Source: Planctomycetota bacterium
Lineage (GTDB): Bacteria > Planctomycetota > Phycisphaerae > UBA1845
Length of the DNA: 64,000 nucleotides
Reading direction: 5' to 3'
Assembly: GCA_030616775.1 (NCBI GenBank)
Contig: JAUWWQ010000002.1
Location: 62,001 to 126,000 of the forward strand
Part shown: positions 15,434 to 21,104 of the stretch, in pieces
Layout: every line of letters begins with the position of its first letter
Position numbering within the stretch: position 1 is the first letter of the stretch
Notes under the pieces: model-generated
What the model was told of the DNA's origin: nothing
The model's database searches: none
The model's input: the letters and a program-made list of their open reading frames with translations, nothing else
Made by a program: the position numbers and the translations under genes

Positions 15434-16957
15434 CTATGAGTCCGAATTCGATGTCTCGGAACTTGGAGGTGACTCCGCATCACCTTCAGATGGCGTTTGC
15501 GGCGGCGATGTCCCCGGCGACTCGCTTTCCGTACTCGACGGAGGTGTGGGGGCTGCGCCGGGCTGCCCCTCATCCGCAGCCGGCGGGGCGACCTCTTCAG
15601 GTTTCGCAGGCGCCGCCTCGGACGGTGCAGCCTGCGACGGGGCGGGACCACCGGGCAGTATTTCTTCCTCTTCCTCCTCGATGTGAACGTCGTCAAGATC
15701 CGTCCCATCCACGTCGCGGCGCAGCAAACAGTAGATCACCGTGCTACCCGAGAAGTAGAACGAGGCCAGAAACGACCACATCAAACCGATGACGACTAGA
15801 ACATAGAAGCCGATCAAGACGGCTGAAAAATACTCATACCACTCCAGACTTCCCCAGTCGGGCGGCTGATATAGCGTGTTTGGTCCGCCCAGCGGCCAGA
15901 GAAGCTCGAGCTTGCTGATCACCTCACCCTCACCTCCACGGTTCCACCAGCCGAACGGTGACGTTCCGAAGCCGACGATGGCCCGTGTGATCGTCAACAT
16001 GAAAAAGGTGAACAGGTTCACGAACACCCAGCAGATGCTTACGTAAATAAGGGTGATGATCGCATACAAGACTGTCTTCCACGGTTTGGAGAGGGGATAC
16101 GACATCCCGCGCGAGAAGGCATCAAACGCGTCGGAGCCTTCCACGGCGACTGCAGGCCAAAACAGGCTGCCGCCAACGAAAAGACCCAGCAGCAACACCG
16201 AGATGACCAGCCCACCGAAAATCGCCAGGCCGAACGCAAGCCCGCCGACCAGGTCCCCCAACACCGGAATTCGCAGAACCATCCCCCCGATCGTAAGCAT
16301 TATCACGGCGATGAAGATGAAAGCCAGCGGGATACAGGGCGCAAGAAAGAACCCGCCAAACAGCTTTCGCCAGCCGTAGCCCAGCCCCTGTTTCATGGTG
16401 AGCTTCTCGTCGCGCGCGAACTGGACGCCGGCAATCCGGCAGATCGCCCCTCCCGCGCACGACCAGATCAGCAGTGCACCTATCGCAAACAAAATGAAGT
16501 AAAGAGTGTGATATCTCGATAACCACCACACGCCATAGACCATTTGGGCGAAGTTTCGAAGCGGTTGGGCGTCCGAGTGGGTCGCGACATACCTTCCTAT
16601 CGGCGTACCCGCGGCGACCGACGCTCCCGGAACCGACGAACCCAACAAGCCCAGGACGCAACGCCGCTCATGCTCGCGCCAGACCTCGAAGATACCGTGA
16701 TCCCCACCCTGTTCTACGTAGAGCTGGTCCAGCTCCCGGGCCTGAATGAACTCGGCAATGGCTGTCGCCTCGACCCCACTGCGCAGCATCCATACCCAGT
16801 CTAGCAGCCCCCCCAACGCGAACGTCAGGAGAATCGCTATCAGACCGATTCCCAGCTTGGCAGGATGAACCGCCAACCCGAGCGTTCGAAGAATGTGAAG
16901 CAGTCCACTCGCCTCAACCCACCCGAGGTCCTTTGAGGTCTGCGAATCTCGTGCCAT
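15434..16957 (-). CDS. polytopic membrane protein with long acidic/proline-rich C-terminal tail
   Basis: 507 residues from ATG 16957. About seven hydrophobic segments are visible (near residues 32-55, 150-175, 200-225, 228-270, 300-330 and 385-420), separated by one ~95-residue hydrophilic loop after the first. The C-terminal ~80 residues are low-complexity: a run of glutamates ('HIEEEEEEILPGG') then Pro/Ala/Ser/Glu-rich sequence ending 'SSETSNSDS', likely disordered and cytoplasmic. The layout resembles conserved hypothetical membrane proteins annotated in planctomycetes, but I do not recognise a named family. Confidence 0.75.
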   Translation of the reverse strand: MARDSQTSKDLGWVEASGLLHILRTLGLAVHPAKLGIGLIAILLTFALGGLLDWVWMLRSGVEATAIAEFIQARELDQLYVEQGGDHGIFEVWREHERRCVLGLLGSSVPGASVAAGTPIGRYVATHSDAQPLRNFAQMVYGVWWLSRYHTLYFILFAIGALLIWSCAGGAICRIAGVQFARDEKLTMKQGLGYGWRKLFGGFFLAPCIPLAFIFIAVIMLTIGGMVLRIPVLGDLVGGLAFGLAIFGGLVISVLLLGLFVGGSLFWPAVAVEGSDAFDAFSRGMSYPLSKPWKTVLYAIITLIYVSICWVFVNLFTFFMLTITRAIVGFGTSPFGWWNRGGEGEVISKLELLWPLGGPNTLYQPPDWGSLEWYEYFSAVLIGFYVLVVIGLMWSFLASFYFSGSTVIYCLLRRDVDGTDLDDVHIEEEEEEILPGGPAPSQAAPSEAAPAKPEEVAPPAADEGQPGAAPTPPSSTESESPGTSPPQTPSEGDAESPPSSETSNSDS

Positions 16958-17567
16958 GACGTGCTCCTTGCGACCCGTGGCTATCGCCCGAGCCGATCGG
17001 TGTTCGATCTATTCCTTCATCTACAACGCCCGCAAGAACATACGCTGAGAAGACCAGACGCAGAGACGCTGGAGCCCGCGCACCCCAGCCGCCCGCGGAT
17101 GGCGAGCGTCATTATAATACCCCACTCATCCAGGGCAACGTTTACCGAACTTGTACCATCATCCGGATGGCAATGCCGTCAATCAGACCAGACGCAAAGC
17201 CCAAGATCGCGTTTATGTGAGCGGTGGTGCTGTGCTTGTCCTGGCAATCCGCCTGCTAAGCTAGACTCCACGAGGAAAGGGGGCAGGTGGTTCCGGGCTG
17301 GCCCGCTATTCGGCTGACGCTGCCAGCCAGGCGATAGACAACGCGGTAGCCGCCGGCGGTTGCACGATGACAAAGTCCGAGAATGGAACAGCAGACTCGG
17401 GTACACTTTCTTCTGGTGCATCCGGCTGCCCTAACGACACGGCCAGCACCGGCGCATCCGCTCCGGCAAATATAAAGTAGGACAACAGAGCGCCCGTTTC
17501 TGCGACGGCAGCATAGCTTCCATAACGTTAAGGTTCGCCTTAGGTTACCGCGGATTCACAGAAAGGA
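16958..17567. other. intergenic region, no convincing gene
   Basis: About 610 bases between the membrane protein (-) and the RNA elements. A leftward frame of roughly 75 codons (about 17302-17526, ending SIAWLAASAE) has protein-like composition but no start with a ribosome site and no recognised family; it could be a remnant. Nothing else was identified. Confidence 0.4.
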
Positions 17568-17694
17568 TGCCGCCCTTTGTCTGATGTACGGGTAGCCCGG
17601 CAATCTTAAGATAGCGGTGATACGCTCCCGTCTTTCGCTCTAAGTCGGGGTGGCCAGCTAAGGGAACGTCAAACTGGAGCGAAAAAGGGCGGCA
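17568..17694. repeat. 127-bp unit bounded by an 11-bp perfect inverted repeat
   Basis: TGCCGCCCTTT (17568-17578) and its exact complement AAAGGGCGGCA (17684-17694) close the unit. Inside, TTTCGCTC (17633-17640) pairs with GAGCGAAA (17677-17684), which touches the right-hand repeat. The unit could be a small structured RNA or a MITE-like remnant; no coding frame explains it. It ends about 50 bases before the promoter of the non-coding RNA gene. Confidence 0.5.
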
Positions 17695-17742
17695 ACTACT
17701 GGTCAACACGGCGAGGTCTGGCTTCCTTGTCTGGAGGCCCGG

Positions 17743-17751
17743 TGGTATAAT
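17743..17751 (+). promoter_or_regulatory. extended -10 promoter of the non-coding RNA
   Basis: TGGTATAAT (17743-17751) is a perfect -10 hexamer preceded by the TGn extension. No good -35 is seen at the normal distance, which is consistent with extended -10 promoters. Predicted start of transcription is near 17758. Confidence 0.6.
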
Positions 17752-17757
17752 ACATGT

Positions 17758-18007
17758 TGTCTGGTCGGTGCGGCTTCCATGCTCGACAGGGAGCTTTCAA
17801 TGGCTGAACCGGTAAAAGAACCCTGAGGAGGCTTCGCGTAAGGCGCCAAACGACGTACCGGCCCCTTTGAGGTCGGCGGTCCGGGCTCCGGGGAGCCACC
17901 CACTTTGAGCCAAGGGTTCTGTCCATTAGCTCCTACCGGCATTGTGGCGGTCGCGCCTGTCGGACGTTGCACGAGGGCTTGCGGTAATCTGCGCAGGCCC
18001 TTTTTTT
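17758..18007 (+). ncRNA. structured non-coding RNA, possibly 6S-like
   Basis: A ~250-nt unit bounded by the extended -10 promoter and a strong intrinsic terminator, with no convincing ORF. Nested long-range pairings form a rod: TCG(G)TGC with GCACGA (17765-17771/17969-17974), CGACAGG with CCTGTCG (17784-17790/17956-17962), then an 18/16-nt open bubble, CCGGTA with TACCGG (17809-17814/17934-17939), and AGAACCCT with AGGGTTCT (17817-17824/17913-17920). A closing stem, large central bubble and terminal stem are the layout of 6S RNA, and the segment GAGCCAAGGGTTC recalls a conserved stretch in enterobacterial 6S. Assignment to 6S is inference; tmRNA, RNase P RNA and SRP RNA signatures are absent. 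Confidence 0.6.
17975..18007 (+). terminator. intrinsic terminator of the non-coding RNA
   Basis: GGGCTTGCG (17975-17983) pairs with CGCAGGCCC (17992-18000) as a 9-bp stem with one G-U pair and an 8-nt loop, followed directly by seven T (18001-18007). Confidence 0.85.
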
Positions 18008-18102
18008 GTGCGCGTGCTCCCGGCGTCCCGCCACCGGCACAGTCCGGCCGATCGTAACTCTGCGGACGTGCAATCCGCAGTTCCCCAGGTATACTGCTGG
18101 CC

Positions 18103-19335
18103 ATGAAGAGATCGCTTGTACTGTTCGAGGACGAAGGGTTTGCTGATCTGCTTCCGCTGGTGTTTTGGCGATCGGTCTTCGAGCTGCAGGTCAGCCGGAA
18201 GATCCTGCTGGATCGAACCGCCCAACGAATCGGCTTGGCGGTCGCGGGTGTGTGGACGCGCGACTGGATGGCACGCGTGGCGGGACAGCGCTGCGGCGCA
18301 CCGGCGAACTACCCTGCCACCGCGACAACGGTTCTGGTCAACGGCCGATGGATATTTGACGACCCGGTAGAGTTCCCCAAAGCACCGTGCGTCGGGGTCG
18401 TGGATTCCGACGTGGCCTACATCGTCTGCGACAAGCAGCTCGCCTCCCGCCTTACGCCGCGTGATCTGCTGGATGCGACTCGCCGCGAGGTGGCGCTGGA
18501 AGGTATTCCCCGAGAGTCTGCAGGTGGACGACTCATCCGCCATCCCTGGGAGGCAATCAGCGATCTTCCCACGCTGCTGGAAAGCGATTGGCGCGCGCCC
18601 GATGCGTGCATCGAATCGGAACTTGATCGAGGACTCAAGCTGGAGAACCCCGACCGGATTCACATCGGGGAGCGCACGCGCATCCACCCGACGGCGGTGA
18701 TCAACGCCTCCGAGGGCTCCATCTACATCAGTCACGACGTTCAGATCGGAGCCTACAGCGTCATCGATGGACCCGCCTACATCGGACCGGGGACGCGCGT
18801 CCTTCCTCACGCCTGGTTGCACGGTGGTAATGCCATCGGCCCCGTTTGCAGGATCGGCGGTGAGATCCACGGCTGCGTGATGCACAGCTACGCGAACAAG
18901 CAGCACGCGGGATATTTGGGACATGCTTATGTCGGCAGTTGGGTCAACATCGGAGCGGGGGCTACGAACTCTGACCTGAAGAACACCTACGGAGCGGTTC
19001 GGGTGCCGATCAACGGTGTGAATGTTGACACTAAGCTTACATTCTTTGGGGCGATCATCGGGGATCATGCCAAGATATGCATTAACGCAACCATTCCAAC
19101 CGGCGCGGTGATCGGCCTGGCGGCCAGTGTCGCATCGACCCGGCTGCTGCCAAAGTACCTGCCCTCTTTCAGTTGGGTGACCGAGGACGGGCCTCGCGCC
19201 GGCGATCCGCTGCGCATGCTTGATGCTGCCAGCGCGGCAATGGCCCGCCGCGATGTCGATATGACCGATGATGAGGTTGAGCTGTTCTTGGATCTCGGGA
19301 AGCGCGTCAAGTCCTTTGAAGCCAACTTACGGTAG
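18103..19335 (+). CDS. alternative GlmU-like protein (putative sugar nucleotidyltransferase with left-handed beta-helix)
   Basis: 410 residues from ATG 18103. It resembles the alt_bact_glmU group: a short, atypical N-terminal domain starting 'SLVLFEDEGFADLLPLVFWRSVFEL' and, from residue ~190, hexapeptide repeats of an acyltransferase beta-helix ('IHIGERTRIHPTAVINASEGSIYISHDVQIGAYSVIDGPAYIGPGTRVLPHAWLHGGNAIGPVCRIGGEI'), then 'NIGAGATNSDLKNTYG', typical of GlmU. In this group the pair of activities (GlcN-1-P acetylation and UDP-GlcNAc formation) is proposed by family annotation. It would supply UDP-GlcNAc for LPS and any peptidoglycan. The N-terminal pyrophosphorylase motif is not canonical. 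Confidence 0.8.
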   Translation: MKRSLVLFEDEGFADLLPLVFWRSVFELQVSRKILLDRTAQRIGLAVAGVWTRDWMARVAGQRCGAPANYPATATTVLVNGRWIFDDPVEFPKAPCVGVVDSDVAYIVCDKQLASRLTPRDLLDATRREVALEGIPRESAGGRLIRHPWEAISDLPTLLESDWRAPDACIESELDRGLKLENPDRIHIGERTRIHPTAVINASEGSIYISHDVQIGAYSVIDGPAYIGPGTRVLPHAWLHGGNAIGPVCRIGGEIHGCVMHSYANKQHAGYLGHAYVGSWVNIGAGATNSDLKNTYGAVRVPINGVNVDTKLTFFGAIIGDHAKICINATIPTGAVIGLAASVASTRLLPKYLPSFSWVTEDGPRAGDPLRMLDAASAAMARRDVDMTDDEVELFLDLGKRVKSFEANLR

Positions 19336-19387: not shown

Positions 19388-20779
19388 TCACGGTCTCATG
19401 GAAGGGATGTTGTTGTGGTGCAGTCCGGGGGTGCCCACCATGGGCGGGTGGTGGTTTTGCGGACGGTAGGTCTGGTTGACGATAGGCTCATATCGCTTCC
19501 GGAACTGGTGGGGCGTTGTCTTGGCTTGAGCCGCCAGCGCCGCCAGCATGGTCGGCGATTCGAAATCCGCCTTCTCGAGTCGAATCATGTACGCACGGGC
19601 CACGCTGTACGTATAGCTGTCCAGGTCAACCTGCCGGATGCGCGTACGATTCGTCTGGGGATTGATCATGTCCTCGAAGGGAACCGGTACGAGATTACCC
19701 GCCTGCAGGGTCACCATAACGCCGGCAGGCAGATCCCGTGTCGAGTCGAGCAGCAGCCGGACACCACCGTGCCCAAGGTCCCGCGTGTATCCCATGTCAA
19801 AGGTCGTGGGGCGCGCGCAGCGCAGCTCGTACCCCAGTGTGTGGCTCACGATCGTCACCTTGTCGCCGCGCGACGCGAACCGCTTCCGTAACTCATCTTG
19901 GAGAAGCCGGGCCAGCGGCACCTCCGAGAGTCGTGGATGACCGGCTGCATCGACGGGGATATCCCGGCCAAGCAAGCCCGAGAGCTCCTCGCAATCCCCC
20001 AGCTTGTACGCCAACCCCTCCGCAAGAACAGCGACCCCGTCAAACCGCCCCATGGTCCGGCGCTTCAGCATTGCGCCCTCGATGATGTCGGCGATCTGAG
20101 CCACCGTGGTGGATTCCGGGAACTCCTCGGGAATGAGTGTCAGCGTCGCGCCAGCCGACTTGCCTATTCCTAGTGCCAGGAACCCGGCATTTCGGCCCAT
20201 GGTTACGACTATGTACCACCGCGCCGTCGTTCTCGAATCCTCCATCAAGTTGGCAACGATCTTAGAGCCGATGTGTCTGGCCGTCATGAAACCAAAGGTC
20301 GGTACGTCCCCAGGCAACGGAAGGTCGTTGTCGATTGTCTTGGGAACATGGACGACACGAATCTGACCGCCTGACTCCTCAGCCACGAAGCGGGAACTCA
20401 ACGCCGTGTCGTCGCCGCCAATGGTCAGCAGATGCGTAACGCCCAGCGAGCGCAATCGCTCGCACACGCGGGAGGTCCTGGCCCGATCAGGCTGAACAAC
20501 CATGGAGATCTCGAGCTTCTCCTGATCGAGCAGATTCGTCCGTGCGGTTCGTAAGACAGACCCGCCATCGAAGTGAATCCGGCTCATCTCCTTAATCAGC
20601 AGCTCCGCCGTATGCTCGGCAGGATCGAAGTGCTCCCCCGCCAGATGGGTGAATCCGTCATAGAATCCCAGAACCGCAAACCCGTTGTTGATCGCTTCGA
20701 TTGCCGCCGCCCCGATGACCCCGTTGATTCCAGGGGCAGGACCACCACCGACAACGATGCCCATTTTCACCTGGGTCAT
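19388..20779 (-). CDS. pfp: 6-phosphofructokinase, probably PPi-dependent
   Basis: 463 residues from ATG 20779, with GAGGA eight bases upstream. Phosphofructokinase motifs are clear: 'GIVVGGGPAPGINGVIGAA' (residues 7-25), 'TIGGDDTALSS' (119-129), 'PKTIDNDLPLPG' (146-157), and 'MGRNAGFLALGIGKSAGATLTLIPEE'. The second Asp of GGDD and the Lys of PKTIDND replace the two glycines of ATP-dependent enzymes (GGDGS, PGTIDND); in characterised enzymes these two residues mark pyrophosphate use. The reaction is fructose-6-P + PPi to fructose-1,6-bisphosphate + Pi, reversible, cytoplasmic. At 463 residues it is longer than E. coli PfkA (320), as many PPi enzymes are. Confidence 0.88.
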   Translation of the reverse strand: MTQVKMGIVVGGGPAPGINGVIGAAAIEAINNGFAVLGFYDGFTHLAGEHFDPAEHTAELLIKEMSRIHFDGGSVLRTARTNLLDQEKLEISMVVQPDRARTSRVCERLRSLGVTHLLTIGGDDTALSSRFVAEESGGQIRVVHVPKTIDNDLPLPGDVPTFGFMTARHIGSKIVANLMEDSRTTARWYIVVTMGRNAGFLALGIGKSAGATLTLIPEEFPESTTVAQIADIIEGAMLKRRTMGRFDGVAVLAEGLAYKLGDCEELSGLLGRDIPVDAAGHPRLSEVPLARLLQDELRKRFASRGDKVTIVSHTLGYELRCARPTTFDMGYTRDLGHGGVRLLLDSTRDLPAGVMVTLQAGNLVPVPFEDMINPQTNRTRIRQVDLDSYTYSVARAYMIRLEKADFESPTMLAALAAQAKTTPHQFRKRYEPIVNQTYRPQNHHPPMVGTPGLHHNNIPSMRP

Positions 20780-21104
20780 AACCGCAGTCCTCGCGTACCT
20801 TTGTGAAGCACCGTCCAATTATCGGCATGGACTCTGCGGAAGGTCAACCGGCGGCCGTAGTGTGCCCTTGGCCATCCTCATTGGGAGCCGTCTGATCTCT
20901 GCTCTTGGGTGCACTTACGTGCGACCACGCCCCAAACCGGTCTGGGCACGTCGGCTCCCGAGACAGCGACCGAGTCTGATCCCAACCAGAATGGATAGAT
21001 GGGCTGTACGCCCACGGATGAGATCGACGTGACCAGCCTTCTACGTATCGCTGAGCAAGCCGCCCGATAACCTTGGGACTGTTTTCAAGCCCGTACTAAT
21101 CTCG

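Follow-up and report, generated by a model that had tools for sequence, protein, structure and literature searches.

Members of the 6S RNA family are about 200 nt long, and in the 6S RNA of E. coli the synthesis of pRNA starts at U44 (PMC8876501). Once this synthesis opens helix P2, the P2 3' strand of the E. coli RNA finds its new partner in the 3' side of the central bubble, whereas in B. subtilis and Aquifex this partner is the distal part of the 5' bubble, in what has been called the 'central bubble collapse helix' (PMC8876501). Among the planctomycetes, no 6S RNA was found in the genome paper of Thermogutta terrifontis (PMC5673643), and Pirellula and Rhodopirellula also lack it according to a screen, as far as that screen is cited in the same paper (PMC5673643). 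In the literature covered by our search, outside of which most subscription papers fall, we found no description of a 6S RNA in Phycisphaerae.

Here we describe a locus within a window of 64 kb (the whole stretch of DNA analysed) from a Phycisphaerae (Planctomycetota) genome, in which a promoter, a 208-nt rod-shaped RNA and an intrinsic terminator make up one independent gene. From the comparisons presented below we assign positions 17758-17965 to the single 6S RNA gene (ssrS) of this genome, which has an extended -10 promoter and a terminator of its own, at a probability of roughly 0.96. The elements of the gene are the following:

17743..17751, + strand: extended -10 promoter TGGTATAAT, recognized in the sequence and by a conserved -10 in the homologues
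17758..17965, + strand: 6S RNA body, 208 nt, from the match to the Rfam family RF00013, covariation and the match to our own covariance model R1 (see below)
17973..18007, + strand: intrinsic terminator, with an 11-pair stem (17973-18002) and seven T (18001-18007), recognized in the sequence

The start of the body was set from the -10 box and its 3' end from the closing stem. A -10 hexamer is present at the matching place in all 20 sequences compared (the window plus 19 homologues), as TATAAT in 18 and TATACT in two, lying 100-125 nt 5' of the apical anchor, and the body measures 200-210 nt across the same set. A matching terminator hairpin and T run are also found in the homologues. Both signals had been proposed in an initial annotation made from the letters of this DNA, and both could be located, the promoter TGGTATAAT at 17743-17751 with its -10 conserved in 19/19 homologues, and the terminator as the stem at 17973-18002 followed by seven T at 18001-18007. 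That annotation had also held a length of ~250 nt, above 180-200 nt, against a 6S RNA, an objection that falls because the terminator hairpin had been included in the count; the structured RNA itself is 208 nt, which agrees with the usual 6S length of about 200 nt. Its remark that the region holds no convincing ORF is upheld, as no frame is open throughout the homologues and the antisense ORFs carry no Pfam domain; on these grounds the two antisense ORFs at 17703-18104 and 17696-17926 were rejected as genes.

At the gathering thresholds, Rfam returned no match in the whole 64-kb window. With the threshold lifted, model positions 1-187 of RF00013 aligned end to end at 17768-17954 with 25.9 bits (E 0.0031, counted against all 4227 Rfam families), this being the best family in 17500-18200; the genome contains no other match to 6S RNA. 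The covariance check that had been suggested for this region came out in two parts, a full-length match to RF00013 on the one hand and a score under the gathering cut-off on the other (25.9 vs 46.4 bits), this cut-off being a curator's reporting threshold and not a biological trait. Weak Rfam matches to groES, sR51, sR44, suhB and Histone3, each below its own cut-off, were taken as chance.

With blastn, homologues with an identity of about 70-90% were found in more than 20 genomes belonging to the same GTDB family. Some of the loci linked in this way, which come from sister genera and families, are also above the RF00013 cut-off (G029, 48.3 bits; G009, 54.8; G055, 53.9; G045, 58.5). Among 60 relatives, RF00013 exceeds its cut-off in 18. 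For the search in the opposite direction, the covariance model R1 was built only from 20 close homologues (the window plus 19). It scores 206 bits on the RNA body of the window, by construction. When applied to 2 kb around ssrS of E. coli K-12 it recovers the annotated gene with 41.4 bits (E 9e-10), and nothing else in these 2 kb exceeds 5 bits. R1 has a match in 54/60 relatives, at the places marked by RF00013 and in a single copy per genome, except for one partial second match in G058; a minus-strand match in L016 only mirrors the true one and was excluded from the permutation counts. The remaining 6/60 relatives gave no R1 match, and in some of them 6S RNA is possibly absent or divergent. 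Homology to 6S RNA is thus found in both directions, since RF00013 finds the relatives and R1 finds the E. coli ssrS. We take the low score of the window copy to reflect the reach of the Rfam model, and the gene is an ordinary 6S RNA gene that is divergent from that standard model. The initial annotation's guess of a 6S RNA is supported by the full-length RF00013 match, the homologues over the cut-off, the covariation (see below) and the reciprocal recovery of E. coli ssrS.

Another reading of the same data would be a polymerase-binding RNA of related shape that is not 6S proper, for instance one of the Ms1 kind, with the sigma-free core polymerase as its target. Ms1 has the same rod-and-bubble shape (PMC9130861) and the window copy is divergent from the Rfam 6S model; however, the homologues above the RF00013 cut-off, the recovery of ssrS by the reciprocal model and the alignment of the pRNA start region with its E. 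coli counterpart make this reading extremely unlikely. The Rfam scan at lifted threshold listed no Ms1. The structure is divided as follows:

17759..17795, + strand: closing (terminal) stem, 5' strand, from consensus helices 1-3
17802..17810, + strand: helix P2 (downstream duplex), 5' strand GGCUGAACC, with its partner at 17915-17924, from consensus helix 4
17811..17826, + strand: central bubble, 5' strand, an unpaired part of the consensus that separates P2 from the apical stem
17827..17899, + strand: apical (internal) stem-loop arm, from consensus helices 5-8
17900..17914, + strand: central bubble, 3' strand, likewise an unpaired part of the consensus, on the opposite side
17926..17965, + strand: closing stem, 3' strand, from consensus helices 1-3

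The alignment of the window with 19 blastn homologues (20 sequences) gave a consensus structure of 62 pairs, in which 90.4% of the cells form standard pairs and 32/62 pairs are altered on both sides. In the closing stem (helices 1-3) such both-sided changes affect 15/28 pairs, and in helix 4 (P2) 97.8% of the cells are paired. The central bubble of this consensus measures about 16/14 nt, near the 18/16 nt originally noted, and the long-range stems that had been described around it are present in the predicted fold. Conserved copies with compensatory changes had been named beforehand as a check, and the alignment contains 99 compensated cells, compared to 36.8 +/- 5.1 in shuffled controls and 23-39 with the partner strand slid. 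When 49 aligned matches are considered there are 492 compensated cells vs 139 shuffled, in an alignment that is fitted to the structure. Overall, the 6S-type rod is confirmed, with a closing stem, a large central bubble and an apical arm, and with covariation in both the closing and the apical arms.

Folding energy by itself is weak evidence (z = -2.4 when the terminator is included and z = -1.3 when the 208-nt body is folded alone) and the body alone is not unusual; it is conservation and covariation, not folding energy, that raise the RNA above chance. Inverted repeats that happen to be stacked in a G+C-rich intergenic region would be in keeping with a body whose energy lies only 1.3 sd below shuffles, but such a chance origin is refuted by the strong covariation, in an RNA conserved in more than 50 genomes, and its probability is practically nil. 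An inverted repeat, TGCCGCCCTTTGTC / GAAAAAGGGCGGCA, with arms 99 nt apart, is found at 17568-17694, just 5' of the 6S promoter.

The gene located 3' of the RNA is the following:

18103..19335, + strand: alternative GlmU gene (TIGR03991, 300 bits vs a cut-off of 225), a conserved neighbour outside the RNA

With a terminator directly 3' of a structured RNA, and with this gene as the same-strand neighbour 3' of the RNA in 17/20 sequences (and, among more distant loci, in 12), the RNA could be proposed to regulate the alternative glmU in cis, as a leader or attenuator whose two folds would control read-through of the terminator. However, a TATACT-type box stands 10-16 nt 5' of the glmU start codon in the window and in 13/16 syntenic close homologues, so that glmU is probably transcribed separately and leaderless, and this -10 box of its own so close to the start codon argues against a cis-regulatory role of the RNA. 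Some homologues have no glmU neighbour, and the structure is of the 6S type, the model built from it finding E. coli ssrS, which adjoins other genes. We regard a leader as very unlikely and retain the independent 6S RNA gene. In the window, the TATACT lies at about 18089 (within 18084-18105), 5' of the alternative glmU. Further along, on the minus strand, 19388-20818 encodes a phosphofructokinase similar to the diphosphate-dependent type, which scores 524.7 bits with NF041103, slightly below the cut-off of 550. On the other side, also on the minus strand, 15434-16957 encodes a 507-aa protein that has no Pfam or NCBIfam match; in many of the homologous loci its gene lies next to the 6S gene in divergent orientation.

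Two further features concern the way in which the RNA would interact with RNA polymerase:

17789..17813, + strand: predicted pRNA template, with the start opposite U17813 and the product 5'-ACCGGUUCAGCCAUUGAAAGCUCCC, from the alignment with E. coli U44
17817..17824, + strand: AGAACCCU, which with AGGGUUCU at 17913-17920 would form a candidate central bubble collapse helix, from complementarity in the homologues

By alignment only, U17813, located beside P2 in the 5' bubble, corresponds to E. coli U44. The pRNA is predicted to begin ACCGGUUCAGCC here and AUCGGCUCAGGG in E. coli under the same reading, and its predicted 5' end is ACCGGUUCAG here and AUCGGUUCAG in the relatives. The segment GAGCCAAGGGTTC, already singled out in the initial annotation as reminiscent of 6S RNA, corresponds to the 3' bubble plus the P2 3' strand and aligns with GAACCAAGGGTTC of E. 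coli 6S.

By extension from the known family, the RNA would imitate an open promoter and place its central bubble in the active site of the primary-sigma RNA polymerase, which would thereby be held during nutrient shortage. Once nucleotides are available again, the polymerase would copy the RNA from U17813 toward its 5' end into a short pRNA, and this synthesis would unwind helix P2; the freed P2 3' strand AGGGUUCU could then pair with AGAACCCU in the 5' bubble, so that the bubble would collapse and the polymerase would be released. Of these steps, the release through an alternative helix is the most speculative, in spite of the conservation of this helix and the covariation between its two strands.

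The 5' bubble contains a conserved AGAACCC able to pair with the P2 3' strand, and this potential helix reaches at least 6 bp in 45/47 planctomycete homologues. Its mean length over the 47 sequences is 7.49 bp, compared to 4.6 bp with shuffled 5' bubbles and 6.49 +/- 0.14 bp when the partners are swapped among sequences. None of 5000 such permutations was as high as 7.49, in a control that ignores relatedness, and the advantage of a sequence's own partner over permuted ones indicates that the two sides co-vary. The E. coli-type hairpin of the 3' bubble with the P2 3' strand has a mean of 4.4 bp in the planctomycete sequences vs 4.5 bp when shuffled, and the same test on E. coli itself gives 7 bp. 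With the 5'-bubble helix conserved and the 3' hairpin at the shuffled level, release in the B. subtilis way, not in the E. coli way, is the better prediction. The conserved helix offers a testable prediction on how a planctomycete 6S RNA would leave the polymerase.

At the tip of the apical arm there is a further conserved element:

17847..17884, + strand: near-invariant apical module CAAACGACGUACCGGCCCCUUUGAGGUCGGCGGUCCG, 38 nt, recognized by pairwise identity

Its mean pairwise identity is 0.83, vs 0.49-0.60 for the surrounding stems and bubble strands, the only comparable values being 0.83 in the pRNA template and 0.76 in its partner. No other exact copy of the motif exists in the genome. 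In sister lineages its place is taken by different hairpins, of the GGACAUGCCCGC type; the module is private to a sub-clade of the family. Tentatively, and with more doubt than confidence, it could be a lineage-specific contact, a second binding site of this 6S RNA for the polymerase or for another protein, and if this were true the module would be a binding site added to an otherwise ordinary 6S RNA.

With the lineage model, most of the members sampled from a Phycisphaerae order prove to have a 6S RNA (54/60), whereas the standard cut-off catches it in 18/60. Among 392 genomes sampled across the phylum, RF00013 at E <= 0.01 is matched in at least 172, at least 101 of them over the cut-off, and R1 in at least 25, both sets of counts being lower bounds obtained with strict filters and with a ceiling on the candidates considered in each genome. 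The difference between the Rfam cut-off and the lineage model within the order implies that some of the 6S absences reported for planctomycetes may be limits of the standard model.

Compared to the known systems, the RNA described here is like the actinobacterial Ms1 in being rod-shaped with a bubble and, if it acts as a 6S RNA, in binding RNA polymerase as Ms1 does (PMC9130861), but Ms1 binds the core polymerase and the window RNA is homologous to 6S by the two-way search. With E. coli 6S (SsrS, RF00013) it shares the closing stem, the length of ~200 nt and a pRNA start, U44, aligned with U17813, as well as a P2 duplex with CUGAGCC/CUGAACC and GGGUUC and a 3' side of the bubble with CACC...CCAAGGG. 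The neighbours differ, zapA and fau lying beside E. coli ssrS and the alternative glmU here, and the release hairpin within the 3' bubble belongs to E. coli, whereas the planctomycetes have the helix between the 5' bubble and P2. It is in this candidate collapse helix that the planctomycete RNA resembles B. subtilis 6S-1 and the Aquifex aeolicus 6S RNA, as these are described in PMC8876501.
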